The notes under the pieces were generated by a model that was given only the letters and a program-made list of their open reading frames with translations, was not told the DNA's origin and made no database searches. Below are positions 23,564-47,228 of a DNA stretch of 48,719 bases, piece by piece. The stretch's first letter is position 1. Every line of letters begins with the position of its first letter. Position numbers and translations under genes: made by a program. This stretch comes from Persephonella sp. (GTDB lineage: Bacteria > Aquificota > Aquificia > Aquificales > Hydrogenothermaceae), in contig JAUZSJ010000051.1 in NCBI GenBank assembly GCA_030949555.1, forward strand, positions 1 to 48,719, read 5' to 3'.

Positions 23564-26343
23564 ATGGAAAAGCTCTACGGAAGCATCGGTTCATTCCCTG
23601 AATACTGGACAGTTAAACATTTCTGTGAAACTGTCTGTGTTATAACAGATTCTGAAAAAAGAGCAAAACTGTTCTATCACGATGCAAAGGTGTATGCCAG
23701 ATATCTGGATATAGATATAGAAGTATCCATCATTCCTTCAGAAACAGATATCTTAGATACAGACTCCCAGATAAAGAGAAATTACGCCCTCTACTGTATC
23801 TTAAGGAAAAGAAAATCCATAGTTGTGCTGGATAAAAAAGCGCTTGATATACCTGTTAGAGGAAAAAACGACTTTTAAACAGCATTATAACAGTAGAAGA
23901 AGGAAAAGAGATAAATAGAGAATACCTGATAGACATTTTGCTTAGAAACGGTTACATAAGGGAAGAGATAGTAGAAAATGTAGGTGAGTTCAGCGTTAAA
24001 GGGGGATTTATATCTGTACATATTCCATTTACAGGTGTAGTGGAGATAGACCTGTTCGGAGATTCTGTTGAGAATATATACATAAAATCAAAACTCGCAA
24101 CAAGAAAGAAGATAAAAACTGTTGATATTTTCCCACTTTATGACTTTCCGGTGAAAGGAGACAGCATAACACTACAGTTTGAAAAAACAGGAGATACAGA
24201 GATTTCAGACTATCTAAAAAACATAAAGAGATACTATATAGACATATATGCAGCGAAAGATGGTGAGATTTACTTCTTCTCAACTGGCAGTTCAGATATT
24301 GTAGGCAGTACAAAAAACAGGGAAGATTTGAAAGAGATAAAACTTCCGCTAAGACAGCCCCTTGTCTTAAAAGATGAAAATCTATTTTTCACTCCATCAA
24401 AAGAAGAAACATTTCAGATAGATTTTGAGCCTTTAGAGGAAGGGGATTATGTTATACACGAGGATTATGGTATAGGCATATACAGAGGTATAGAAACGAG
24501 AAACATAAAAGGGAAGAATTACGATTTTATGATTTTAGAGTACGCAGGAGGAGAGAAAATATACCTGTCCTACCTCCACTTTGACAGGATATTCAGGTAC
24601 AGGGCATCTGGTACTGTTGAGTTAGATACAATTGGTGGAACATCCTGGAGAAATCTAAAGAAAAAGGTTAAAAGCTCTCTTAAGAAGGTTGCAAAACAGC
24701 TGTTGAAACTGTATGCAGAGAGAAAAAATGCAAAAAGGAAACCATATATAGTGGATGATGAGCTGATTAAAAAATTTGAGAGCTCTTTTCCCTATGTTGA
24801 AACTCCCGACCAGATGAAGGCTATTATAGATATAAAAAACGATATGACATCAGATACTCCTATGGAAAGGATTATATGTGGTGACGTTGGTTTTGGTAAA
24901 ACTGAGGTTGCTCTAAGAGCTGTGTTTATAGCTGTTTATAACGGTAAACAGGTAGCAGTTTTAACTCCCACAACTGTCCTTTCATTTCAGCATTACAGAA
25001 ATTTTAAGGAAAGACTGGAGCCGTTTGGTATAAGGGTTGAGAACCTTTCAAGACTGAAAACAAAAAGGGAGATTGAAGATATACTGGAAAAGCTGAAAAA
25101 GGACAGATTGATGTAATGATAGGAACACACAGACTTCTTCAGGATGATGTAAAGTTTAAAGATTTGGGGCTGCTGATTATTGACGAAGAACACAGATTTG
25201 GTGTGAGGGCAAAAGAAAAAATAAGAACAGTTAAAAAGGATGTTGATACTATCTACCTATCTGCAACACCAATACCACGAACACTTAGTATGGCTCTTTC
25301 TGGTTTTAAAGATATATCTGTTATAAGAACACCGCCAGAAGGAAGGCTGGAAACAAAAACCTACGTTTCTGTTTACAGTGAAGATGTTATCAGGAGGGCA
25401 ATTGATTTTGAGCTAAGCAGAAATGGTCAGGTTTTTTACCTGTTTAACAGGATTGATGGAATTGAAGAGAAGGCAAAGCAGCTAAAAAGTATATTCCCCA
25501 GTGCAAACATAGAAATAGCCCATGGGAAGCTAAAACCTAAACAGATAGAAAAGAGATTAATTGACTTTATACAGAAAAGGATAGATATACTGGTTTCTAC
25601 CTCTATAGTTGAGACGGGGATTGATATACCCTCCGCAAACACACTGATAGTTGAGAGAGCTGACCTTTTTGGTCTTGCACAGCTTTACCATCTTAGGGGA
25701 AGGATAGGAAGGGGAAACATTCAGGCTTACTGCTACCTCCTTCTTCCAGAAAAGATAACAGAGAACGCTCACAAAAGAATAGATGCTGTCCTCAGATTTA
25801 CCAGACCTGGTTCTGGACTGAAAATATCTATGGAAGATATGAGAATAAGGGGAGCAGGTAATATCCTTGGTGTTGAGCAGAGTGGTTATCTGAAAGCTGT
25901 CGGTTATGAGATGTATATTAAGCTCCTTCAAGAAGTTTTTCAGGAAGAAACAGGTTCAGAGGAAAAAACGCCAGTTATTCAGGTAGACTTAGACAGCTAC
26001 ATACCAGAGAGCTTTATAAAAGACCCTTCAGAAAGGATGAATCTTTATATGATTGTGTCAAAGGCAGATGTGCCAGAAATAGAGCAGATAAAGGAGTATC
26101 TGACCCGTTTTCACGCTGGGGTACCTGAAGCAGTTCTGGTTTATCTTGATGTGGAAAAGCTGAAGAAGGCTGCAAAAAATATGGGATTTAAAAAGATACA
26201 GATTTCAAAAAGATAAAACAGTAATAACCTTTAAACAGGATAATCCACCGCCTCCAGAGATTATTGACAGGATTTTAAGGCATTTTGAAGTGGTAGATGT
26301 ATCAGCTGATACTGTTTCATTACATCTGAAAAGAGAGATATAG
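23564..26343 (+). CDS. mfd: Transcription-repair coupling factor (three frameshifts, short N-terminus)
   Basis: SF2 DNA translocase that removes RNA polymerase stalled at DNA damage and recruits UvrA. Joined length about 927 residues. The RNA-polymerase-binding domain EEGDYVIHEDYGIGIYRG starts near residue 292, followed by GDVGFGKTEVALR (Walker A), LTPTTVLSFQH, IIDEEHRFGV (DEEH box), LSATPIPRTL, STSIVETGIDIPSANT, the RGRIGRG motif, and a C-terminal TRCF domain. Breaks lie near 23875, 25110 and 26205. In E. coli the polymerase-binding domain starts near residue 475, so the UvrB-like N-terminal module is much reduced. Nine bases after psiE. Confidence 0.92.
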
Positions 26344-42212: not shown

Positions 42213-43496
42213 ATGAAAAAGGAAAACTCAGTAAAACTTTTTAAAGAAGCCCAGAAATATCTGGTAGGTGGAGTTAACTCTCCTGTTAGAGCCTTCAAAT
42301 CCATTGGTATGGAACCCCTGTTTATCCAGAAAGGTAAAGGAAGCAGAGTGTGGGATGCTGATGGAAACGAGTTTATTGATTATGTATTGTCATGGGGACC
42401 ATTAATTTTGGGACATGCCCACGACCAGATTATCAATGCTATAAAGCATATTTCAAACTATGGAACAAGCTTCGGAGCTCCAACAGAGATAGAGATAGAG
42501 ATGGCAAAAGCTGTCGTTGATGCCGTTCCTTCTGTAGAAATGGTCCGATTTGTAAATTCTGGAACAGAAGCCACAATGTCAGCAATAAGGCTGGCAAGGG
42601 GATACACAGGAAAGAAAAAATTATAAAGTTTGACGGATGTTATCACGGGCATGGAGACTCTCTTTTAGTTTCTGCAGGGTCTGGAGTGGCAACACCTGGT
42701 ATACCAGGAACACCTGGGTATTCCTGAAGAGTTAGCCCAGCTTACAATTGTTCTTCCCTACAACAATATTGAAGCTGTAGAGGAGGCGTTTAAGAAGCAT
42801 GGAAACGACATAGCCTGCGTGATAATAGAGCCTGTTGCTGGTAATATGGGTGTTGTAGCTCCATCTAAAGAGTATCACCAGAGATTAAGAGAGATAACAG
42901 AAGAGTATGGTGCTCTTCTTATATGGGATGAGGTTATGACAGGCTTCAGACTTTCTCTGGGAGGAGCTCAGGAACTTTATGGAATACAGCCTGACCTTAC
43001 GACAATGGGGAAAGTTATTGGAGCTGGACTACCTGTTGGAGCATACGGCGGAAAGAGAGAGATAATGATGCATGTTGCACCAGAAGGACCTGTTTATCAG
43101 GCAGGAACATTATCAGGAAATCCCCTTGCCATGGCAGCAGGACTTAAACAGCTTGAGATACTAAAAGATAAAAACCCCTATCCAGATTTAGACAGAAAAG
43201 GAGATAGATTAGAAAAAGGTATGAGAGAGCTGATAGATAAGTATGGAATAAAGGCGACAGTAAACAGGGTAGGGTCAATGATAACAATGTTCTTCACAGA
43301 CAAAGAGGTGAAAAACTTTGATGATGCAAAATCCTCAGACCTTGAACTGTTTAATAAATTTTATAAATTGATGCTGGATAAGGGTATATACCTTGCTCCA
43401 TCCCAGTTTGAGGCCTCTTTCCTCAGCACTGCCCACAGCGATGAGGATATTAACAGAACGCTAAATGCCATAGAAGACACATTTAAACAGCTTTGA
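42213..43496 (+). CDS. hemL: Glutamate-1-semialdehyde 2,1-aminomutase (two frameshifts)
   Basis: PLP enzyme making 5-aminolevulinate in the C5 haem pathway. About 427 residues: [95 protein letters not shown], the PLP Lys in [18 protein letters not shown], and [11 protein letters not shown]. Breaks lie near 42621 (A-run) and 42720. ATG 42213 behind GGAG. It heads hemL-NTF2-nrdR. Confidence 0.95.
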
Positions 43497-43903: not shown

Positions 43904-44363
43904 ATGAAATGTCCAAACTGTGGTTCCCTTAACGATAAGGTTGTTGATACCCGCCAGTCAAAAGACGGGACAGTTATAAGAAGAAGAAGGGAATGTCTTG
44001 ACTGTGGATTTAGATTTACCACATATGAGAGATATGAAGAGGAAAAGATTGTTGTTAAGAAAAAAAACGGAACAACAGAGCCTTTCAGCAAAGACAAAAT
44101 AGTCAGAGGTATAAGACTTGCCTCAAAAAAACAGACCCGTTTCTGAAAGACAGATGGTTCAGATTGCAGATGATATAGAAAAGTATCTCCTTGAGGAAGG
44201 TAAACTGGTTGTGGAAAGTACAGAGATAGGAGACCTTGTCCAGGAAAGATTGAAAAAGATTGATACTGTTGCTTACCTGAGATTTAAATCAGTTTATAAC
44301 GAGTTTAAAGACCTGAAAGATTTTGAAAGAGCATTAAAAGAGATAGAAGAGAGGGAAGAATAA
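43904..44363 (+). CDS. nrdR: NrdR transcriptional repressor of ribonucleotide reductase (one frameshift)
   Basis: 153 residues. N-terminal zinc ribbon MKCPNCGS...CLDCGFRFTTYERYE (Cys pairs at residues 3/6 and 31/34), then the ATP-cone domain beginning VVKKKNGTTEPFSKDKI. The frame breaks near 44130 at an A-run; the other frame continues with RPVSERQMVQIADDI, EIGDLVQERLKKID and AYLRFKSVYNEF, the normal NrdR end. It represses nrd genes through ATP/dATP binding. The stop is five bases from the convergent parB stop. Confidence 0.95.
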
Positions 44364-44368
44364 TCCCT

Positions 44369-45318
44369 CTACTCGTACTTTTCTATAATACTGTAGATTT
44401 CCCTCAGCTTTCTTTCAATCAGTTTTTCTATCTTTCTCTTCTCCTCTTCAGGCAGTTTTCTGTATATGGAAGAAAATCTTTTGTTAATCTCCCTGAAGCT
44501 GTCTTTAAATGGATTTTTTACTCTTTTTTCAGCTTCTTCCCCCAATATATCCTTTACTTTCCTTTCTACCTCTTTTTTAGTCAGGTTGTTTCTGACTATC
44601 TCTTCAATAAGGGCTTTCATTTTCTCTGGATAGTTTCTCAGCTTATTTACCTCTATGGCAAGGCTGTAGGACCAGCCGTGTTTTTTAATAGCTTCCTTTA
44701 TTTCAGATGCCACATTCAAAATTTTCAGTCTTTCTATAAATGTTCTGAGATTTGTTCCAGACAGCTTCTGCAGAGTTTTCTCTATAATCTGTCCTTCCCT
44801 TCTCTCTTCTTCTGTCAGACTTTTTATATTTCCTGATATGTAGTTGAAAATCTTTCTTGATATTTTAATCACCTCTTCTTTATCTTTTTTAGAACCAATG
44901 AAAGATACTCAAGCTGTGACATCAGTTTATCGTAGTCGTTCAGGTCTTCCCTCTGGGCATTTTCAGATATCATCAATGCAAGGGCAGTCTCCTCATCTAC
45001 ATCCAGTATTATTGCTGGAATTTTGTTCCTCTTCAGATATTCAAAGGCTTTTATCCTTATATATCCAATTATCCTTTCATAACTTCCATCAGAGAGCCTC
45101 CTTACCACTACAGGCTGGGCAAGCCCAAATGCCTTTATGTTTTCTGCCAGTTCAACAACTCTTTTAGGGTCCACATAACTTCTGTCATGGAATCGGGGAT
45201 TTTTTATTTTTGATATTTCTATCTCTTCAGGTTTAACTTCCTGAATAGTCTGAATAGCCTCTTTAACTTTTTTTGAGCTTTTTGTATCTAACACATCTTC
45301 AAATATCCCAATGTCCAT
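44369..45318 (-). CDS. parB: ParB-like partition protein (one frameshift)
   Basis: About 317 residues. The N-terminal ParB domain holds EIEISKIKNPRFHDRSYVD, ELAENIKAFGLAQPVVVRR, YERIIGYIRIKAFEYL and MISENAQREDLNDYDKL. After a one-base break in an A-run near 44890 (LVLKK to DKEEVIKISRKI) comes an HTH-containing region and charged coiled helices (TKKEVERKVKDIL, RKIEKLIERKL). The CTP-binding box is GYIRIKA in place of the usual GERR-x-A, a divergence typical of non-chromosomal or specialised ParBs. Directly downstream of parA, 12 bases apart. Confidence 0.8.
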
Positions 45319-45330
45319 TTTATTTTCCTC

Positions 45331-46182
45331 CTAAACAGTAATTTCAGAATGTATCAGCACTCTTCTGAGTATCTCATCTGTTATACTTTCAAGTGTAAGC
45401 AGAATATCCCTCTGGGCTTTTTTCTCATTTTCAATATACTTCCTTATGGAAACTCTTTTACCTGCTGCTTCTGCCCACGCTATCCTGTCTTTTATAGGTT
45501 CAAAAAACAGCTCCTGTGAAGCCACCTTTACAAAATCGTACCTGCTTAAAATGTCAGGGATTGTCTGCTTTAAAGAGTTTAAAACATCATTATGCTCTTT
45601 AAGTCTTGGTTTATATGCAACAGGAATAAATCCTAATATTGACAGCTGAAGTCTGAATGTCATTACTGCCTGAATAACAGTCTGAAGAGTTCCTACTAAA
45701 CCTGTAGAATCAACAAAGGTCAGTCTTGTGGGAATGAGGATGTAATCACTTGCTGCTATTGTTCCTACTGTTAAAGCTCCAGAATCTGCGGGAGAGTCTA
45801 TAAGAACAAAGTCATACTCTTCAGCAAATCCTTTTTTACCAAATCCTCCCCTTAAGAAATTAGAAAGAACCAGTTCCTTACCCATTCTTCCACTTTCTGC
45901 TTCTTCTCTAAGTCCCTGATTAGATGGTATGAGGTGGAGATTCTCATTAATCTCAACTGGCTCTACATCTTTACCACTGAATATTCCTGTAATGTCATGT
46001 TTTCCTCCAACAAATTCAGAAAGTCTGTTAAAGCCAAAAAGCATGGTCTGAGTACCCTGAGGGTCGTAATCTACTACCAGAACCCTGTACCCCCTCCTGA
46101 ACAGTTCATAGGAAAAAGCATTGGTCAGACTGCTTTTACCTGCACCACCTTTCTGATTTACAAAACCTATAATCTTTCCCAT
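45331..46182 (-). CDS. parA: ParA-family partition ATPase
   Basis: 283 intact residues. Deviant Walker A with the signature Lys, QKGGAGKSSL at 9-18; Walker A' VDYDPQG, and Walker B-like FVLIDSPADSG, then PTRLTFVDSTGLVGT and GFIPVAYKPR. An MinD/Soj-type ATPase, without an N-terminal HTH, so it probably does not bind its own operator. It lacks the close similarity to chromosomal Soj seen next to gidB; no gid or dnaA is here. Probably partitions DNA or another cargo. Upstream lie the TGTCTTAAA repeats. Confidence 0.88.
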   Translation of the reverse strand: MGKIIGFVNQKGGAGKSSLTNAFSYELFRRGYRVLVVDYDPQGTQTMLFGFNRLSEFVGGKHDITGIFSGKDVEPVEINENLHLIPSNQGLREEAESGRMGKELVLSNFLRGGFGKKGFAEEYDFVLIDSPADSGALTVGTIAASDYILIPTRLTFVDSTGLVGTLQTVIQAVMTFRLQLSILGFIPVAYKPRLKEHNDVLNSLKQTIPDILSRYDFVKVASQELFFEPIKDRIAWAEAAGKRVSIRKYIENEKKAQRDILLTLESITDEILRRVLIHSEITV

Positions 46183-46203
46183 CTTTATACCTCTTAAATT
46201 GAT

Positions 46204-46269
46204 TGTCTTAAAAACTGTTCGGAAAATTTTTTTATTTCTTTAATTTAAGACAGGAAACTGTCTTAAAAA
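46204..46269. promoter_or_regulatory. TGTCTTAAA repeats and palindrome between parA and the receiver-like gene
   Basis: TTTAAGACAG (46244-46253) and CTGTCTTAAA (46258-46267) form a perfect 10-bp-arm inverted repeat around GAAA. A third copy, TGTCTTAAAAA at 46204-46214, is identical over 11 bases to 46259-46269. The set lies in the 137-base gap between divergent parA and 46320, and the palindrome covers the probable -35 region of the plus-strand gene. It could be a parS-like site for ParB or an operator for both genes. Confidence 0.55.
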
Positions 46270-46276
46270 TTATGTG

Positions 46277-46282
46277 TATAAT
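46277..46282 (+). promoter_or_regulatory. Putative -10 element of the receiver-like gene
   Basis: TATAAT 38 bases before the ATG at 46320, downstream of the palindrome; no separate -35 is evident because that position falls in the palindrome. CAGGAGGGG gives a strong ribosome site before the ATG. Confidence 0.5.
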
Positions 46283-46319
46283 TATTATGAAATTTATATT
46301 TATATCTCAGGAGGGGATT

Positions 46320-47228
46320 ATGAATATAGCGGTAATAAGTTTTGACCAGGATTTAGTTACAAGTCTGGCAAAGAAACTACCGGACTTTCAGGTTAAAGGC
46401 TACACTGACAGTCTGAGTCTCCTGAGGGAGATATCATTTTTTGACCCTGAAATTATTATCTACGACGCCACCGGCGGAGACCTTGCATTTAACGCACTTG
46501 AATTTTTCCTATCGAGGGAACAGGTAAAGGGTAAAAAGATAAAGGTCCTGATATCAAAGGATAATCCTATTGATGAAAAATCACTGTCCCAGTTTTCAGG
46601 ACTGGACTTTTATGACAAAGAGGCAGAACTGGAAAAACTTGTACAGGATTTAAAAGAAACAGGAGGGGAGGAAGCTACTGTAGAGTCATTTGAAGAAAGC
46701 TATCAGCCACCGACAGATATGGAAGCCCTTTTATCTACAGAAAGTCCTCAGACTGAAAGAGGCGAAATAGACCTGTCTATGGAAACGGAAGATATAGAAG
46801 ACGTAAATGAGCTGCTGAAAGAGATGGAAAACATATCTGTAGAGGAAACTGCTACACCACAGAAAACATCAAAAAAAGAAGAGGCAACAAACACAGGAGG
46901 AATGCTAAAGATAACTGTTGAGATATCTCCTGAGGATATCAGAGAAACAGTTTTAAAAATAGCTGTAGAAAAACTTATAGAGGAAATTAAGACAGATGTT
47001 GACATACAGAAGATAAAGGAAGACCTTCAGAAGGATTTCTTTGACAGATTAGAAAAAGAGTTAAAAGATTCTGCAGAAGAGATAAAGGAAAATATCAAAA
47101 ATAAAGTATTTGAAAGTATAGAAAGCGAGCTGAAGGAAAAGGTAAAAGAAAGTATCAAAGAGGATGTTACAAGGATAACAACAGAGCTTGTTAAAGAAAA
47201 ACTCAATCAGGTTTTTGGGAGTAAGTAG
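46320..47228 (+). CDS. Receiver-like domain plus acidic linker and long coiled helix, unknown function
   Basis: 302 residues from ATG 46320 (preceded by GGAGGGG). Residues 1-115 read like a CheY-type fold: MNIAVISFDQD, PEIIIYDATGGDLA (an Asp where the phosphoacceptor would be), KIKVLISKDN (Ser) and DFYDKEAEL (Lys), but the first acidic pair is weak. Residues about 120-200 are an acidic, disordered linker (ETGGEEATVESFEES, ENISVEET). The C-terminal part is a mainly helical charged segment, KIAVEKLIEEIKTDV to VKEKLNQVF, rich in coiled-coil heptads. No output domain is recognised. It is divergent from parAB and overlaps the flippase gene's 3' end by 26 bases. Confidence 0.7.
   Translation: MNIAVISFDQDLVTSLAKKLPDFQVKGYTDSLSLLREISFFDPEIIIYDATGGDLAFNALEFFLSREQVKGKKIKVLISKDNPIDEKSLSQFSGLDFYDKEAELEKLVQDLKETGGEEATVESFEESYQPPTDMEALLSTESPQTERGEIDLSMETEDIEDVNELLKEMENISVEETATPQKTSKKEEATNTGGMLKITVEISPEDIRETVLKIAVEKLIEEIKTDVDIQKIKEDLQKDFFDRLEKELKDSAEEIKENIKNKVFESIESELKEKVKESIKEDVTRITTELVKEKLNQVFGSK

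Follow-up and report, generated by a model that had tools for sequence, protein, structure and literature searches.

The locus and its genes

The window, that is, the whole stretch of DNA analyzed here, is the 48,719-nucleotide contig C51 of a Persephonella-like metagenome-assembled genome (MAG) of 1.43 Mb that is 55% complete. Persephonella is a member of the Hydrogenothermaceae (Aquificota), and Persephonella MAG JALSNI010000029.1 is a close relative of the window. The open reading frame (ORF) at 46320-47228 on the plus strand is a genuine gene, and its product of 302 amino acids comprises a pseudo-receiver, an acidic linker, and a long helix. A longer in-frame ORF exists (46272-47228), with an upstream extension; we place the start at 46320 because a ribosome site (GGAGGGG, 46310-46316) lies just before it and because an alignment with 30 relatives shows the same start. 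A promoter scan of 46150-46350 returned no plus-strand site.

As an earlier note on this DNA had stated, parAB lies next door in divergent orientation. The parA gene (45331-46182, minus strand) encodes a Walker ATPase of 283 amino acids, recognized from its ORF and a domain scan, and parB occupies 44369-45318 on the same strand. A one-base frameshift relative to locus L038 leaves parB in two ORFs here, and it forms a single frame in relatives; the frameshift is probably an assembly error. Genes broken by frameshifts are common in MAGs, and frameshift-like breaks were seen in several genes of the window, with a hemL-like gene (42213-43496) and an nrdR-like gene (43904-44363), both named by eye, each falling into two ORFs. 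Upstream of parA lies a parS-like palindrome, TAAGACA-N6-TGTCTTA (46246-46265), set in a perfect inverted repeat at 46244-46267, where a terminator scan calls a stem. A half site, TTGTCTTAA, stands beside the parA start (46203-46211), and a second copy of the palindrome lies at 24350-24369, inside an mfd-like gene (23938-25116).

A predicted receiver fold with an altered active site

The earlier note had read the N terminus as CheY-like and had proposed structure prediction as a check; the models agree, folding residues 1-115 (46320-46664, plus strand) as a receiver. They were built from two sequences, the window protein and its L038 relative. AlphaFold2 modeled residues 1-119 with a pLDDT of 87.9 and a pTM of 0.82, in the order b1 a1 b2 a2 b3 a3 b4 a4 b5 a5, and the (beta-alpha)5 receiver fold spans residues 2-116 of the predicted models. 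The full-length model (mean pLDDT 64.2) reproduces this domain and continues into a low-confidence middle and then a single helix at residues 204-299. VIA-align matched the domain to a Thermotoga response regulator with a Z score of 13.8 over 110 residues, and 48 of 50 among the matches listed carry titles of receivers or response regulators, the two non-receivers being 8oyp_A (Z 12.5) and 9ckx_A (Z 12.4). Foldseek, given the domain alone, found receiver-bearing proteins by title in the best 50 of 1452 matches, the best of which had an E value of 4.7e-5 and a TM score of about 0.7.

The fold claim rests on these structure models, since sequence-level searches gave only weak matches. A Pfam scan of the window protein gave no match to Response_reg (PF00072) even at an E value of 1, and the protein is not among its own genome's seven Response_reg matches. 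Two of six further relatives touched that model (E of 0.017 and 0.022, both below the cut-off) and one touched the GlnR receiver model (E of 0.0038); both relatives from family f2 that were scanned touched a PhoB-type regulator model in NCBIfam, with a best E value of 9.3e-5, far below the cut-off. When solved structures were searched with a sequence profile, seven rows came back with E values of 0.66-0.92, comprising two response regulators by name, three ubiquitin or ribosomal proteins, and two more that we take to be receivers. Aligned by hhalign to the seven receivers of its own genome, the domain was co-linear over 101 columns, with a probability of only 9.9% and an E value of 0.0032.

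In the register given by hhalign, the receiver Asp pair aligns to S7-F8, and D9 adjoins. Position 7 is Ser or Thr in 27/27 Hydrogenothermaceae domains and in 20/20 first copies of families f2 and f3. D49 occupies the phospho-acceptor position and is Asp in every one of the 27 Hydrogenothermaceae domains; the equivalent residue in f2 and f3 is Asp in 20/20 first copies and 19/19 second copies (one gap). K100 is mostly kept, as Lys in 23 of the 27 domains, and is Arg in all 20 f2/f3 first copies. The Ser/Thr place is 78 or 79, which is not certain, as a Thr aligns to 78 in hhalign; at position 79, Ser occurs in 22/27 Hydrogenothermaceae domains and Asp in 20/20 f2/f3 first copies.

A pseudo-receiver is defined, in a passage of PMC12632262, by the lack of any of five residues. 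Because S7-F8 replaces the Asp pair, the modeled N-terminal domain is, under that definition, a pseudo-receiver and looks inactive; the acidic Mg2+ pair of phosphorylated response regulators is missing here. Other passages of the same source state that the Asp of GlnR and RamR is important for dimers rather than for phosphorylation, and term the way in which bacterial pseudo-receivers are switched a mystery (PMC12632262). The view that the protein has neither a helix-turn-helix nor an enzyme output also holds, in that no such domain passed the Pfam or NCBIfam cut-offs in the window protein, and an adaptor without an output domain fits this anatomy.

The acidic linker and its short motifs

The long acidic linker described earlier is present at residues 116-203 (46665-46928, plus strand) and is probably disordered, judging from its pLDDT and composition. 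Blocks of ten over residues 111-210 of the full-length model have pLDDT values of 29-57, and Asp+Glu make up 30% of residues 116-192, against 6% for Lys+Arg. The linkers of all 15 relatives measured are acidic as well (22-35% Asp+Glu), and that of L045 is Pro-rich (23%).

Two short motifs lie within the linker. PPTDMEALL (residues 130-138; 46707-46733, plus strand) resembles the EIDALL motif at the N terminus of FliM, weakly in the window copy and more strongly in several relatives, and DIEDVNELL (residues 158-166; 46791-46817, plus strand) overlaps a helix predicted at residues 160-168 with low confidence. The linker pattern PPxD[MIL][ED]A[LI]L is common to Persephonella and genome G016 and is close to the start of FliM, which in relatives, Persephonella included, reads FLSQEEIDALLG. 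EIDALL is the site for CheY-P according to part of PMC9126983. The protein could then be a CheY-binding decoy or linker, its [SP]PxD-hydrophobic-E-x-L-L motif mimicking FliM and either tying CheY-P to the protein or binding the protein's own receiver in cis. We consider this quite unlikely. Motif scores of 28-30 out of 57 in five relatives (L046 and L048-L051) exceed the maximum of 26 among 399 background ORFs, and 16 of the 35 linkers outscore 95% of their own shuffles, but for 15 of the 35 more than 10% of shuffles reach the score, and for four more than 80% do; the window copy scores 15, which 12% of shuffled linkers reach. The proteins of genus g8 (L062 7546-9042, L063 7143-8585, and L059 1-1239) each carry six matches to [DE][IVML][DENQ]x[LI][LI], of which one lies where the receiver ends in L063, yet FliM was found in none of the three g8 genomes.

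The C-terminal helix

Residues 204-299 (46929-47216, plus strand) form a single predicted helix, its first half at low confidence. The tail had been called helical and heptad-rich; the helix stands, but the heptads do not. The hydrophobic period of the window tail is 3.96 residues, with a power of 182.6 at the peak versus 1.5 at 3.5. All 55 tails tested, which include L038 and L040 (taken as one genome), peak at 3.94-4.24 and none at 3.4-3.6, within a search range of 3.2-4.4; in 200 shuffles per tail the peak was reached by at most 8%, and by none in most tails. Coiled coils usually have heptads, and a heptad coiled coil is excluded by the period in 55/55 tails. Conservation is concentrated at the tail's end, the last 20 residues holding five of its eight invariant or nearly invariant columns.

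PopZ is laid out as an acidic flexible linker followed by a self-associating C-terminal helix. By analogy, the present protein might build a polar matrix, a condensate or network with many clients for which the receiver would be one client-binding arm. The acidity of the linkers in 15/15 relatives, the Pro-rich one of L045 among them, and the conserved tail end are consistent with such a matrix, but the 4-residue period, unlike a heptad, argues against it, and we judge it unlikely.

Distribution of the family

A single-sequence search found the family gene in 34 of 41 Hydrogenothermaceae genomes, and a profile search found it in 98/136 genomes of the Aquificota and 97/112 of the Aquificales; these counts are lower bounds, since some of the misses fall in genomes that are incomplete and the profile has little strength beyond the Hydrogenothermaceae. 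Beyond the Aquificales, 24 other genomes of the class gave one weak match, with a stop, in G124. Tandem receivers were counted in 20 fetched loci at a permissive per-domain E value of 1, where all 20 f2/f3 proteins had two (16 proteins) or three (four proteins) receiver-domain hits; the genome search likewise returned two matches in many f2/f3 genomes. For the members scanned, no Pfam or NCBIfam family was matched above its cut-off. A protein of this kind, kept by most of a small-genome order, is a worthwhile target, as its pseudo-receiver class has an Asp that is invariant yet apparently non-catalytic. A literature search, limited to records, returned nothing on pseudo-receivers of Aquificales or on response regulators together with type IV pili in Persephonella.

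A role as a flagellar protein was considered and set aside, as there is no clear link with the distribution of FliM. FliM occurs in 103 of the 136 genomes and is present in families f4 and f5 of the class, where the gene has at best the weak G124 match; it is missing from the three g8 genomes and from the four g13 genomes that carry the family gene.

Gene neighborhood

No upstream partner is kept across the Hydrogenothermaceae, the place being taken by parA in eight genomes, a histidine kinase in four, and several other genes. The steadiest neighbor is a convergent LPG-synthase-TM gene downstream, found in 27/34 Hydrogenothermaceae carriers. The family gene is missing from 3/3 genomes of genus g4, so the protein is not indispensable; beside the convergent gene, G012 has ORFs of 89 and 147 amino acids that are unrelated by eye, and the other two g4 loci show no such gene by eye.

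The search for the same neighborhood in relatives, another check that had been proposed, found parA as the divergent neighbor in 8 of the 12 carriers within Persephonella; among others with the upstream gene in view it was so in 0/21, a count that leaves out G004, where the contig ends. Neither finding that the earlier note had named as refuting its reading was obtained, since the N terminus folds as a receiver in the models and relatives with parAB as neighbor exist. By mechanical starts, parA and the gene are 118-165 bases apart, and 137 in the window. On a gene tree of 32 rows the parA-adjacent group needs 2 changes versus a mean of 7.3 in shuffles, with near copies helping, and on this tree a single origin of the adjacency is possible. 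Gene and parAB are both present and apart in G019, G025, and G029, and G028 has the gene with only a ParB fragment. In G016, where the close ParB occurs as in no other genome outside Persephonella, about 11 kb separate the gene from parAB, and 18 of the 34 Hydrogenothermaceae carriers have no trace of ParB in either search.

The earlier note had further suggested that the gene and parAB share an operator. The inverted repeat is indeed perfect, but the palindrome travels with parAB and not with the pseudo-receiver gene. It lies upstream of parA in 8/8 adjacent genomes and in the four separated loci examined (G016, G019, G025, and G029), and none was found in the 230 bases before the family gene in L046, L048, L050, and L051, where parAB is elsewhere.

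These observations bear on whether the protein serves partition. Because parA adjacency is limited to part of Persephonella and many carriers lack ParB, a core role in linking ParA to cargo is unlikely, and the distribution led us to reject it as the core function; the proposal of ParA-driven positioning thus finds no support in the 21 non-Persephonella neighborhoods, in the 18 carriers without ParB, or in the four genomes with the loci apart. An adaptor that ties ParA/ParB to a cargo or to the cell pole, perhaps controlled by ParB at the intergenic palindrome, would account for the eight adjacent loci and draws on the few changes on the tree and on the proximity in G016. Against it stand the same ParB-free carriers, the four Persephonella genomes with the gene away from parAB, and the palindrome's association with parA, and we hold it to be very improbable.

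In G019, G025, G028, and G029, a histidine kinase gene of the same orientation precedes the family gene by 61 bases (as at L048 8226-11198 and L050 6053-9040, and likewise at L049 and L051). This arrangement, in 4 of 12 Persephonella carriers, could point to phospho-signaling, and the protein would then be a phosphorylated response regulator with an unusual output that is served by the kinase. The invariant D49, the usual K100, and the frequent Ser at position 79 would suit such a regulator. However, the Asp pair is Ser-Phe, and all 20 first copies in f2/f3 have Arg for the Lys and Asp at the Ser/Thr site. The kinase also has its own OmpR-type regulator, which precedes it in both loci scanned (L048 and L050). 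Of the 29 further carriers whose upstream gene is in view, not one has the kinase cluster immediately upstream, the families of those upstream genes having been tested in part. We therefore give a phosphorylated regulator very little credence.

Outside the Hydrogenothermaceae, the neighborhood takes another form. All 17 f2 loci fetched show a run of PmbA/TldD (identity tested in one member), a small protein with two apparent transmembrane stretches by eye, and the family gene, which hints at a membrane partner in f2; the run was found in 0/3 f3 loci. The small proteins (17 loci among L102-L120) share a conserved end, LKALRLTxATxKIIPxES, and the one member with scores had no Pfam match over the cut-off. 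As a universal partner this protein was rejected, the Hydrogenothermaceae giving 1/41, a weak partial match with a stop. In genus g3, a glmS-like gene beside the relative (L053 1-2466) appears by eye to contain an intein-like insert.

Related systems and a proposed function

FrzS of Myxococcus xanthus, a regulator of polar type IV pili with a pseudo-receiver and a coiled coil, is similar in layout, having an N-terminal pseudo-receiver with a replaced Mg-site Asp, a long helical C terminus, and no output domain, as described in parts of PMC1974792 and PMC11580455. Those descriptions also give FrzS no phospho-acceptor Asp and a coiled coil of 258 residues (PMC1974792, PMC11580455), whereas D49 is invariant in the window family and the helix of the window protein has about 96 residues and a 4-residue period. 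The FrzS receiver 2i6f matched the domain with a VIA-align Z of 12.6 at rank 21, and other receivers match as well or better. The window family also differs from FrzS in its acidic linker between domains and in the occurrence of tandem receivers. TadZ/CpaE proteins have a CheY-like fold with unusual chemistry, as here, and the TadZ receiver 4lda is among the Foldseek hits (E of 3.7e-4); one of the 27 domains touched the Pfam TadZ-like model (E of 0.093). In TadZ the receiver is fused to a ParA-type ATPase, whereas ParA here is encoded by a gene of its own, which in most cases is no neighbor. Orphan atypical response regulators of the HP1043 type have a receiver fold without phosphorylation and, by title, matched the domain in VIA-align (2pln, Z 13.4; 2hqr, Z 12.6). 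They have DNA-binding outputs, unlike the window protein, which has no known output domain.

Arguing from this architecture, we favor, at a little under even odds, a phosphorylation-independent scaffold or adaptor that is FrzS-like in layout but no member of FrzS. The surface of the pseudo-receiver would dock one partner, the linker motifs would catch further partners, and the tail would self-associate or bind a fixed cell structure, such that the protein might gather its partners at one place. Most Aquificales would share this function, which would not depend on ParAB, as parAB adjoins the gene only in part of Persephonella. The invariance of D49 speaks against a scaffold, since a purely structural role would not demand an Asp, although the Asp in GlnR and RamR has its importance in dimers. 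A bolder version, which we regard as a distinctly doubtful prospect, is an Aquificales-specific hub of cell organization that combines a new pseudo-receiver class (S-F-D in strand 1, Y/F-D in strand 3) with a helix of 4-residue hydrophobic period that would assemble as neither a heptad nor a hendecad coiled coil, and in which a FliM-like motif would admit chemotaxis signals in some lineages.

A candidate parS in Persephonella

The palindrome is a side finding that may be more interesting than the pseudo-receiver protein. Canonical parS, TGTTNCACGTGNAACA, had no exact match in 41 genomes and 0-2 one-mismatch sites per genome. TAAGACA-N6-TGTCTTA, in turn, has 4-7 copies in each of 12 among the 14 Persephonella genomes and at least two copies in 13 of 14, for 65 in all, versus an expectation from base composition of about 0.02 per 2 Mb; a reversed-pattern control gave 0 in 13 of these genomes and 1 in one. 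Elsewhere in the Hydrogenothermaceae it occurs twice in G016 and not in the other 26 genomes, which include G001, G004, and G013, all three having a ParB that is more distant. We put it forward as a candidate parS, non-canonical and unproven; should it prove to be their parS, these bacteria would have a centromere-like site that differs in sequence from the canonical one.

The ParB encoded beside it is itself divergent. Intact ParB from L038 passes the cut-off of the TIGR00180 parB model and has its lowest E value to the Noc (nucleoid-occlusion) model, below that model's cut-off. By eye it reads GYIRIKA where chromosomal ParBs have GERRxRA, given as their motif in part of PMC7022226. A literature search of records returned nothing on ParB of Persephonella or on parS together with ParB in Aquifex.

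Clustering of the sites was seen in G019. In G016, the two sites showed no clustering beyond chance (30,635 of 100,000 random draws were as tight), and in G017 one of five lies on another contig. All seven in G019 fall within a 461 kb part of its 1.91 Mb, a tightness matched by 152 of 100,000 random draws, with one of them 3.5 kb from dnaA and another 1.9 kb from parB, and in G029 all seven lie on the dnaA contig, one about 3.3 kb from dnaA.
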